Positions 24,601 through 28,800 of a DNA stretch of 64,000 nucleotides are shown piece by piece; within the stretch, counting starts at the first letter, position 1, and each line of letters opens with the position of its first letter. The notes beneath the pieces were generated by a model, which was not told the DNA's origin, did not search any database, and saw only the letters and a list, made by a program, of their open reading frames with translations. The position numbers and the translations under genes are program-made. The DNA lies in the NCBI GenBank assembly GCA_951799425.1, contig OX637396.1, positions 9,823,201 to 9,887,200 of the forward strand, given 5' to 3'. The stretch is from Ilex aquifolium. Lineage: Eukaryota > Streptophyta > Magnoliopsida > Aquifoliales > Aquifoliaceae.

Positions 24601-25566
24601 GTTATGTAGTACCAATCAAAGTTAATAATGTTAATTTAGGTACTCAAAGGTAAGTAAAAGATCATAAAACCAGCTTCTATAAACTTGGTAATTGTTCAGA
24701 AACATGCTAGACACCTGTGACCCATGTAAAATCTTAGGATCGACCAGATCAACAGCTAGCCTTCCCGAAAAAGGCATGAAGTTTTGTGCTTCAACTGTTT
24801 GAAATTTGTTTTCTCTGACTTTGTCAGTGTCAACAAACAATTCGAAATACCTTGACTTGTTTAGAACAGATCTAAGTTAAATAGCAATGATTTGAAGACT
24901 ATTTGAAGCACAAAATTTCTTCTTGATCACCACTACGGGCCAAGCCAAGCCTAGGTGGTTTCGGGTGGCCTTCAAGAACTTTACTCTTTCCTTCCCATCA
25001 TCGGATTGAATTCACCCAAGATCAAACATAAAGGGTCATCTTGAACTAGGGAAACTAAAATCATCCCATCTATGAAATACTAATGGTTCAAAATCCAACT
25101 ACAAGATGGGTAACCCTAGAATTAATCCATTTTAATCATGAAAACCATCATTTACAAATTGAAACTAAAATCATCCAATCTATCAAATACTTGTGGTTTA
25201 AAATCAAACTACAAAAATGGGTAACCCTAGAATTCCATTTCAATAATGAAAATTGCAATAACAAGCTGGAAGAACTAAAAACCGTTTAAAAGGATAAAAC
25301 TGAAAAACAAAGAAGAGAACAACCAATAAACGCGAAACTTGAAAATAACACCTACATGAGAAACTTTAGAATCTACTAACCTCCGGAAACAAATAATTAT
25401 TTCGCAACTTCTCCATGTTTACATTCCGGGCTACTTTTGTACAATAACCAAGTACTGCATGTATTTCGATTATTGCAGGAAGATTTAAAACTTTGATAAA
25501 ATGAGAGAAACAATAGCTTAAAAAAATGCAACTGATCACATACCTCCTTCTTTCTGTACCATCAAA
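18651..25566 (-). CDS. ALD1: ALD1-like aminotransferase, copy A, missing exon 1
   Basis: Nine exons read on the minus strand: 25544-25566, 25381-25454, 24482-24598, 23234-23296, 22298-22402, 22117-22167, 20344-20664, 19049-19255 and 18651-18944 (stop TAG). All have the same length and phase as in copy B and no premature stop. The product is a class I/II PLP aminotransferase close to ALD1 (AGD2-like defence response protein), which in Arabidopsis transaminates lysine on the way to pipecolic acid in plastids. Visible motifs are [23 protein letters not shown], the PLP-lysine motif SSFSK and [15 protein letters not shown]. Exon 1, which carries the start codon and plastid-targeting part in copy B, is absent because the duplication breakpoint (about 25713) lies in intron 1. 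Translation could start only at the internal ATG in exon 2, or as a fusion to the upstream gene. It may be a pseudogene despite its open frame. Confidence 0.85.
19984..20297. mobile_element. MITE in the intron between ALD1-A exons 8 and 9
   Basis: Inverted ends GGTTAATAACACTTTTAGTC and, reversed, GGAATAATAGTATTTTTGGT, continuing with TAAAGTATGCACGTTTTGTC against TAAAGTATACCCGTTTTGTC. It is also present at 43028-43369, where it is about 30 bp longer internally. Confidence 0.7.
21436..21681. mobile_element. Mutator-type MITE in the intron between ALD1-A exons 7 and 8
   Basis: Ends GGGAAACTCTACGG and CCTAGCCTTTCCC (short inverted repeat) with a perfect 9-bp target duplication TTCAAGGAA at 21427-21435 and 21682-21690. 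Shared with copy B at 44445-44690. The interior contains CGATCATG-type palindromic motifs. Confidence 0.75.
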
Positions 25567-25852
25567 CTGCAAAAGAATCATTTAATAACTGTTAACATAA
25601 AGGGACTATGCACTTATAAGCAATTGAGATTGCAAGAATCTATGCTGCAAAGATCACTAAAAACTGTTTCATACTCCTAAATTTTTCTTTTTCGGTAAGG
25701 CACTCTTAATTTTAGCAATAAAAGAAGAAGTTTGAGCCTCTCCCACTTTTAAAGTTTCTACTGTAACCTTCTAAAGTGGTAGCTGTGATGAAGACATGGA
25801 GGATAACTACTCGACCGAAAGTTTCAGCTCGAGAAAAGTTAAGACAACCAAG

Positions 25853-28800
25853 TTACCTGAAAGCAGCATCACCAAAATAGGCAGTTATAGCCTTTAAACT
25901 GCTCCGCACGTAATTTTCTTCAATCTGCATGCGTCTAACCAGCTTTAGCACTCAAAGGACTTCAAGAACGATGGCAGGTTTTTCATGCTAATGTATCATC
26001 GAGTAGAAAAAATACCTGAACATGTAGAGGAGGAGAAGACAGCCAAGAAAGTTCTTCCACTTCACGTAGGTCTACATTTCTAGGTAAGAACATAATGATG
26101 TTGGGGGTTATTGATTGAGCGATTTGAAACATTGAATACCTGCAGAGATGATGCAAATTTATTTCTGAATATAGAACACCATTCCGAGATTGCCAAGTCT
26201 ATGTGCAGGTGCCGTATAATCCAGCAGCATTCAAAGTTTTTGAAGAAAAAACAAAGGAAAAACACTGCAACACTGCAAAATTCATTCAGTACAGAAAGAT
26301 GGCATAAAATGCATAGTAGAACAATAATCCTTCTTGCATTGAAATTCACTATAGATTTCCAAGAAAGAAAAGTTCAAAAAAACAGCATTTAGTGCTGATT
26401 TGAACCACTAATCTTTCGAAACATCTCTTATACCCGGAGTTTCCTTTTGGCCAAGATTCTGGACACGAATTCTCCATGGCATAATTGATTATGTTCTGCC
26501 CAAATATAACAACAATTGGCTTGAAGTATACCCGGGCATGCTAGCTTAGGAAGGAAGATCCCTTGTATTTACCATGGTTCAAGATCGCAGTATAAGCCAT
26601 TAACTCAGAGACCACTGAGACGTATTGGTCGGGGCAGCACGGAACGATATCAAACGATACACTACGTAGTAGAAGAAGCTGAAGACCACAAGAGATTCAG
26701 ATCATATCACAGTTGTTTCTCTTTAAATGCAGTTCATAAAGTAATAAGCATGGTCAGCAGCACATACCCATCCTTTGGCTTCAGTAGGTCAAGGGTAAAA
26801 TTCTCAACTGTCTTATATGATGGACCCCCCCATGGTGGTGAAAGGAATACTACATTACCCTAACAAAATGTACACCATTACAGATTTAGAAGGAAAGAAT
26901 AACAGTAATCAAAATATAAGCAAGCAAATCAGAGAACAGAGATAATTCGAAAAGGAAATCCGAGAGAAACATCAGCCATGTTTTCCACTGGCACCTGCAG
27001 TCAGTTACACATTATTGTCTTCAGAAATTTTAGTTGAACGAAGTTCTAGGAATCCTTCACAGGCTGTAATTTCCTGGTGGAAAGCAACCTGTCTCGGATA
27101 AGATTTCAGTTTTAAGGGGGAAAATTTGCACTTGTAAACACCGGCGAGTTAAAAACTCAAAAAAAAAAACTAAAATTCCAAGCTCAACATTTGATTCAGA
27201 GAAATAGAGTGTTAAATCACAGACAGGTAGAAGTCTCTAGCGTTGTCTAAAGTCCTTGGCCTAAACACATCAATAAATAAAAGCCTCTCAATAAAGTAGG
27301 CAAATTTCACCTTCTGGTTTTGTCAGGTTACTCAGAGATTTTCCCTATTTTATTTATCAGACAAGAGGCCAACGTGCACTAGCAAGTCATCCGCAGATTG
27401 TGATATGGATAGCCAAATATTCCAGAAATGGGCATCAAACTTCAAACTTATTTGCACTCTTCAAAATGCAAACTTGATTCAACTGGGAAGATTTAAGTGT
27501 TTCAATTCTTTTCCAATTAACAACTCCAAAAATATAGACCAAATGCCCTGATGAGTACTTGGCATACTACTGAAAGTAGAGTAAGAATGTGGCTATTCAA
27601 TTGTCGAGGAAGCAATATATTATTTTCAAGTTGTCTAAACTCTAAAGTGTAGTTATCATTGGTAGAGGCTTAAAATTAACACAGGCCAAACCACTAGTAT
27701 TAGTAGTCAATGACTTGATGCAATGTATAAAAACTTGATGTCACTAAGGTTGCCAAAAAAGGCCAAAACTCGTGGCCAAACCTGCCATCAACTTTTCAAA
27801 ATATTGGCAACCAAGTTAAGCACTTTCTGGAAATGAAGTAAAGCAATCTAAATGACCGAGCAACTGTGTGCATCAGACTGCCAGTTATAAACTAGCCTGC
27901 ATACCATTATCTTCTGATTAACTCAATCAAGTGACAATTTGGAAGCAGCGAAGCAGACTTCACATAGGTATTATTCTGAAAATTCAACACAACTGAAGAA
28001 AAGGAAGAACATTACCTTCAGATATGGTGCAAGTTGGAAGAAGTCTCCCACAACAAAGTCTATATAATCTTCCACGCCATATATTTTTGCATTATCAGAA
28101 GCCATTGCAACTTTATGTGGATCAATATCAATAGCAACAACGTGTTGACATCTAGGAATGAGAAAAAAAAAAGAATTTAGACAACCGCATTTTCAAGAAA
28201 TATTAATACTCAACAAATAGAAAAAAATCAAATGGTTGAACAAAATTCAAATCTGAATACCAAAACGAATATCTACTCATGTATTACATGCATGCATACA
28301 GATATCTACGTAGACATATGTACGTGCTTTACATATGCCAACAATGTATGTGTCATCGGGAAGGGATAATTTTCTTTGAATTTTTCCATTAAAAATGCCA
28401 AGCGACAGACTTAGTGCAACCCACAACACAATTTTATGCAAGTGAAAGGAAAAAAGAAAGAAAAAGTGAACTTACAAGGATAAATTTACACATACAATCA
28501 GACGCCATTTATTTCACCTATTTAGTGTAAAGGGCAGTCAAGTAGGTTCATGTATTTCTGTAATGCATTATTTGAATCTAAACCCAGAGATTATCTCCGA
28601 GCAAAGATTCACCTCACAGTATGAAGGCCCAACTCAAAGCAAGGTTACAGTGCAGGATGACCTTCAAAGATCTATGGTTCATCGTTCAGGCTTCAAACAC
28701 TGCACACCATGAGGCTAAAATAAGACTGATATTTGTCTGATCTACAGAGATTTAAGCAGCAAAATCAGAACACACACTCCACATAACATGTTGAAATAGA

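Follow-up and report, generated by a model that had tools for sequence, protein, structure and literature searches.

Organization of the TGS1-ALD1 locus

We analyzed a 64,000-nt stretch of the holly (Ilex aquifolium) genome (contig C6, positions 9823201-9887200; hereafter the window), in which a copy of ALD1 without its first exon lies close behind TGS1, a trimethylguanosine synthase gene whose stop codon overlaps a candidate splice donor. Along the minus strand, ALD1-B (48883-41662) comes first, followed by a long terminal repeat (LTR) element (34273-38822) that contains a gag frame, then TGS1 (32999-25853), and finally ALD1-A (25566-18651). TGS1 and ALD1-A form a same-strand pair in which the second place is taken by a duplicated or rearranged gene, as at the ITN loci of Arabidopsis.

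TGS1 is a canonical short trimethylguanosine synthase of 243 aa, encoded on the minus strand by six exons (32999-32942, 32839-32590, 28151-28016, 26859-26768, 26139-26016, and 25924-25853). The final exon, which the original prediction had counted as the fifth but is the sixth in our gene model, terminates in GCTTTCAGGTAA; the last codons are TTC AGG TAA, with the stop at 25855-25853. The catalytic domain of human TGS1 (PDB 3gdh) matches with an E-value of 6e-72 and aligns with residues 16 to 240 of 243, through the motif ITAYFGD, and PF09445 (1.7e-40) covers residues 85-239, corresponding to profile positions 3-164 of 165, leaving the domain end intact. An unnatural end of the protein was unsupported, as the stop lies a few residues past ITAYFGD, where the human match ends. 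Compared with human TGS1, a possible C-terminal ALD1 extension is found only in the TGS1 of the window. Plants possess both a short type and a long, WW-domain type of TGS1, according to excerpts of two studies (PMC8440268, PMC6895069). In searches of the 800-Mb assembly that contains the window, which was the scope of all our genome-wide searches, no other short TGS1 appeared among the 10 matches. C16 and C19 each carry a more distant relative: the one on C16 terminates in ITAYFSEPSV, and the one on C19 (C19:15832000-15841900) has only two recognizable exons in that stretch and is perhaps degraded.

ALD1-B is a complete gene of 439 aa (minus strand, 41662-48883; exon 1 at 48883-48819). Its best PDB match is Arabidopsis ALD1 (4fl0; 1.6e-209), with which it aligns from residue 18 to 438, and it is nearer to ALD1 (699 bits) than to 2z1z (641 bits), which we take to be AGD2. 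The ALD1 gene model contains an SFSK motif, the lysine of which presumably binds the cofactor, and aminotransferase activity is predicted. ALD1-A (minus strand, 18651-25566) consists of exons 2-10 with an open frame of 417 codons and belongs to the plant LL-DAP-aminotransferase family (TIGR03542, 1.2e-147). Self-comparison of the window revealed that a duplicated minus-strand segment carrying ALD1-A (25712-17666) matches 48558-40688 in and around ALD1-B. The homology breaks off inside intron 1, at 25712/48558, about 260 bp below ALD1-B exon 1, and ALD1-A is therefore left without exon 1 and the promoter region. The missing N-terminal exon carries a putative plastid signal, a difference from Arabidopsis ALD1. 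Since the exon 1/2 junction of ALD1-B (PRASL) aligns with the corresponding PKASL of 4fl0, ALD1-B represents the ancestral form and ALD1-A the headless one.

A relocated exon 1 that might serve ALD1-A was not found: a genome search with ALD1-B exon 1 and its 5' flank, which may skip repeats, returned ALD1-B itself as the single match, and the exon-1 peptide matched nowhere else in the genome. A tandem duplication of an entire ALD1-TGS1 unit, which would place a second TGS1 behind ALD1-A, was unsupported: the window self-comparison contains no TGS1 repeat, a search of the adjoining 9.9 kb brought up nothing convincing, and the 10 genome matches include no other short TGS1. The self-comparison also identified self-complementary elements of about 300-340 bp at 43031-43365, 19987-20293, and 15351-15654; the first two are alike, and each lies in intron 8 of one ALD1 copy.

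The TGS1 stop codon and the frame across the gap

The candidate donor, CAG|GT, occupies positions 25855-25859 of the minus strand and overlaps the TGS1 stop; its use would place the end of the exon at 25857, after AG and in phase 2. Its sequence, CAG|GTAACT, agrees with the consensus at 8/9 positions, and position +5 is C rather than G. For comparison, the 14 inferred real donors of TGS1 and ALD1-B score 5-8 of 9, including 6/9 for the phase-2 donor of TGS1 exon 4, and the predicted U1 duplex of the candidate (-8.0 kcal/mol) falls within their range (-5.6 to -8.6 kcal/mol). Downstream by 290 nt on the same strand, ALD1-A exon 2 (25566-25544) begins in phase 2 behind the acceptor TTCTTTTGCAG and is followed by the donor GTATGT. 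The acceptor phase is the same in the complete copy, where exon 1 (48883-48819) also leaves phase 2 (AAG|GTAATG), and the 110 bp directly above ALD1-A exon 2 match the ALD1-B acceptor region without a single difference. The putative intergenic intron (25567-25856, 290 nt) contains the duplication junction at about 25712.

If 25857 were joined to 25566, a continuous, stop-free frame of exactly 660 codons would result, which retains all of TGS1 except its last residue. The original prediction had anticipated the overlap of stop and donor, the phase-2 end in AG, the phase-2 acceptor 290 nt away, the lost first exon, and a frame of about 660 codons, and each of these agrees with our analysis to the base. 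Its description of the donor as strong is fair, with the reservation that position +5 is C.

How often such an arrangement might arise by chance was estimated from the stop triplets of the window. Across both strands and all frames, a donor of at least 8/9 overlaps 24 of the 7,612 stop triplets (about 1 in 300), and AGG precedes 81 of the 7,612. Because a donor formed by AGG-TAA is always in phase 2, the phase match alone is worth a factor of about 1/3. Moreover, the donors of TGS1 exons 2 and 4, two of the gene's own five, are also in phase 2 (that of the penultimate exon is in phase 0), so some in-frame junction with ALD1-A is to be expected; what is unusual is a junction that retains the whole TGS1 domain. 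A join sparing all of TGS1 but its last residue would be met roughly once in 100 to once in 300 genes, acceptor phase uncounted. The stop-overlapping donor is thus unlikely, but possible, as a coincidence.

Three products are open to the 25857-25566 splice: the 660-aa fusion, a protein started at the ATG at 25930, and one started at the ATG at 25562. The first of these alternative starts (25930-25928, minus strand) is found where TGS1 intron 5 ends; it shares the frame of exon 6 and, via the splice, that of ALD1-A, to which it would add a head of 24 aa. This in-frame ATG is part of the exon 6 acceptor (ATGCAG), and exon 6 could therefore act as a new first exon for ALD1-A. The other start (25562-25560) lies in frame within ALD1-A exon 2. 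We scanned the 2.6 kb from 28151 to 25567 for intron-free ATG-led frames ending in a phase-2 donor of at least 7/9. Two were found, one of them trivial (2 codons), and the sole non-trivial frame ends at 25857 (shuffled mean, 0.7). Each of the four intergenic ATGs is out of frame or soon runs into a stop, and all lie inside the putative intron, so the splice would remove them. A spliced leader beginning in exon 6 would still hold the ATG at 25869, from which a frame of five codons runs to a TGA overlapping the ALD1-A ATG. Among poly(A) hexamers, the gap contains no AATAAA and a single ATTAAA, at 25586.

Signs of coding constraint on ALD1-A, and neighboring features

The 417-codon frame of ALD1-A is open: none of its nine exons has a stop, a frameshift, or a damaged splice site. 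The two copies differ at 10 of 417 residues. Synonymous differences between them number 15 and non-synonymous ones 10 (Ks 0.054, Ka 0.0105, Ka/Ks 0.20), and no coding indel separates them, against about 11 expected. Synonymous divergence (5.2%) is close to the non-coding divergence of 6.1% (389 of 6,409 aligned sites; Fisher P = 0.61), and non-synonymous divergence is far lower (P = 6e-14). Gene conversion as the cause of the low coding divergence was unsupported: synonymous sites diverge like non-coding ones, which argues that divergence has not been erased in this way.

To polarize the changes, we used an older ALD1-like paralogue on C12 as the only outgroup; Arabidopsis ALD1 disagrees with this polarization at codons 167 and 415. 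Non-synonymous nucleotide changes then number 6 on the A branch (two in one codon) and 3 on the B branch, with 2 left unassigned, and synonymous changes number 3 and 5, respectively, with 6 left unassigned. The 6-8 non-synonymous changes on the A branch compare with about 29 expected under free drift if the branch carried half of the non-coding divergence. At most eight changes would arise with P of about 4e-6, or 0.003 if A carried just a third of the divergence. By a rough estimate, the neutral share of the history of A is 10-18%, with a 95% upper bound of 33-43%. Overall, ALD1-A looks constrained, more loosely than ALD1-B, a case supported by the comparison with non-coding sequence, nor does it resemble a copy that died long ago. 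By its Ka/Ks against ALD1-B and the A-branch count, it looks more constrained than a pseudogene, as are the second genes at ITN loci, and the ratio of non-synonymous to synonymous changes (N:S) on the A branch alone is not decisive. Such signs of selection on a headless copy make some route to the translation of ALD1-A likely.

Divergence between the copies is uneven along the duplicated segment (17666-25712 vs 40688-48558): introns 1-3 diverge by 1.4-3.3% and introns 4 and 8 by 7-9%, and intron 9 shows 0%. Just above exon 2, there are 2 substitutions in 145 bp against about 9 expected (P = 0.007), which we did not count as selection on the acceptor because divergence is also low in introns 2 and 3. 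The C12 paralogue and a partial second copy lie at C12:27335055-27335427 and C12:27369103-27373102, and one of the two matches of this partial copy contains two TGA triplets.

Among the other features of the window are two related LTR elements in opposite orientation, at 34273-38822 and 5038-9097, whose LTRs are 97.2% (605 bp) and 93.4% (546 bp) identical, respectively. The gag frame of the former lies at 36946-38187 (PF03732). Between this element and ALD1-B, there is a Kelch-repeat frame on the plus strand (39719-40195, PF01344).

Possible routes to an ALD1-A product

We propose that an ALD1 copy beginning within intron 1 landed about 140 bp behind the TGS1 stop, without its promoter and its first exon with the putative plastid signal, and that TGS1 would since have supplied the 5' end of ALD1-A. 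The bulk of TGS1 mRNA would stop at its own stop, and a fraction would read through, which is plausible given that the copy lies where the 3' untranslated and termination region of TGS1 would be expected. Readthrough transcripts would then be spliced from the donor at 25857 to the old exon-2 acceptor at 25566. Starting from the TGS1 promoter, this would yield the 660-aa TGS1-ALD1 protein; starting inside the TGS1 end, it would yield ALD1-A with the 24-aa TGS1-derived head, or translation from the exon-2 ATG. As all of these products lack exon 1, their ALD1 part would be expected in the cytosol or nucleus. The original prediction of an in-frame chimera created by segmental duplication thus holds for the anatomy, phases, duplication, and frame; readthrough, use of the splice, the choice of product, and its location are what we infer. 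Use of the junction is a tentative reading, a little short of probable. The TGS1-ALD1 fusion is plausible but unproven, and it seems doubtful that the 660-aa protein is the form on which selection has acted. Equally doubtful is the fullest version of the proposal, a nascent bifunctional gene in which the stop doubles as a donor, one promoter gives either the methyltransferase alone or a 660-aa methyltransferase-aminotransferase that takes a defense-signal enzyme out of the plastid, and the ALD1 half is under selection.

Several observations weigh against use of the junction and its fused product. Readthrough chimeras are expected to splice from the penultimate exon, and the penultimate-exon donor of TGS1 is in phase 0, so that this join stops after 246 aa. 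Donors as good as the candidate lie on about 1 in 300 stop triplets. The A-branch N:S ratio is 0.6 from the assigned changes (6 non-synonymous, 3 synonymous; P = 0.35 against neutrality) and 0.2-0.8 with the remaining changes assigned either way, compared with 0.14-0.18 for B; with the assigned changes alone it does not exclude neutrality, and A may therefore be relaxed. The loss of exon 1 may also be late and postdate most of the selection. Finally, excerpts of Arabidopsis studies describe a normal pathway that suppresses such chimeras, which are seen chiefly in mutants (PMC6545605, PMC3814327), and ALD1 is described as working in plastids (PMC8006555).

An alternative is that ALD1-A is a decaying pseudogene, once complete, which recently lost exon 1 and its promoter and is untranslated, the donor on the stop being a coincidence. 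At the rates given above for AGG and for the donor, many such sites are expected in a genome with tens of thousands of genes, and the excess of assigned non-synonymous changes on A (6 vs 3 on B), together with its N:S range, fits decay. However, nine exons without a lesion, a number of A-branch changes far under the non-coding expectation, and a small estimated neutral share do not, and a single event, a duplication starting in intron 1, accounts for the structure without a later deletion. We consider this alternative rather unlikely, though deserving of serious weight. It is also unlikely that ALD1-A is a stand-alone cytosolic ALD1, driven by a promoter newly arisen within or beside the 290-bp gap and started at the exon-2 ATG at 25562, with no TGS1 junction. 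That ATG opens 416 codons and corresponds to residue 24 of ALD1-B, the match of which to 4fl0 starts at residue 18; a TATAA lies at 25618; and in an excerpt on an Arabidopsis readthrough pair, the tagged product of a truncated second gene (GENE2) had the size predicted for a start at its internal methionine (PMC6545605). Nevertheless, unspliced leaders starting above 25581 hold an out-of-frame ATG whose frame overlaps exon 2, the gap is in part the 3' end of an intron, and the promoter is purely putative.

Exon-skipping chimeras, in which TGS1 exon 2 or exon 4, both ending in phase 2, or exon 5, ending in phase 0, is joined to ALD1-A exon 2, would use donors that TGS1 must use anyway. The exon 2 and exon 4 joins are in frame, with 520 and 596 codons, and the exon 5 join stops at 246, the outcome being broken methyltransferase fusions or decay-prone mRNA that tunes TGS1. 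Yet the loss of exon 6, or of exons 5-6, leaves the cap methyltransferase incomplete, and decay-prone transcripts leave the selection on ALD1-A unexplained, which makes this route very improbable.

Readthrough chimeras at rearranged tandem loci are of a known kind in plants (PMC6545605, PMC3814327). In the excerpts of these studies, Arabidopsis tandem pairs in which GENE2 is duplicated or truncated show readthrough, cryptic intergenic introns, and chimeric mRNA; the ITN loci are under NERD/FIP37/CPSF30L control, with GENE2 Ka/Ks values below those of pseudogenes and above those of the total gene set (PMC6545605), and FPA governs similar chimeras, with some evidence in the wild type (PMC3814327). 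The holly locus resembles the ITN loci in its same-strand pair, the duplicated and truncated paralogue close behind GENE1, and the potential cryptic intergenic intron. Unlike them, as far as they are described there, it is known from sequence alone, its candidate donor overlaps the stop of GENE1, and the fusion would keep an unbroken frame. Of the two ITN reporter pairs described there, one made GENE2 as a separate protein, and in the other GENE2 loses its ATG in the chimera (PMC6545605). The FPA chimeric RNAs likewise arise from tandem genes by readthrough and cryptic splicing, and some change the upstream coding end; in contrast to a fusion protein, the chimeras described there encode the upstream frame with a new 3' untranslated region (PMC3814327). 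Human readthrough fusions, which are transcription-derived gene fusions, are also enriched in segmental duplications; the excerpt concerns a human and great ape set, mostly supported by expression, in other gene families (PMC6764479). Our literature search returned no paper naming both TGS1 and ALD1 as whole words, and a wider search gave no such fusion in the titles among the matches listed.

The pathway that makes pipecolic acid in systemic acquired resistance includes ALD1-type enzymes (PMC8006555). If the splice is used, a duplicate that came without promoter or first exon would owe its survival to the 5' end of its neighbor, whose stop codon would double as a donor, and an ALD1-type enzyme would be made outside plastids, controlled by the promoter of what is presumably a housekeeping gene. 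Fusion or not, this constrained headless copy would be well suited to testing how copies of this sort come to be expressed.

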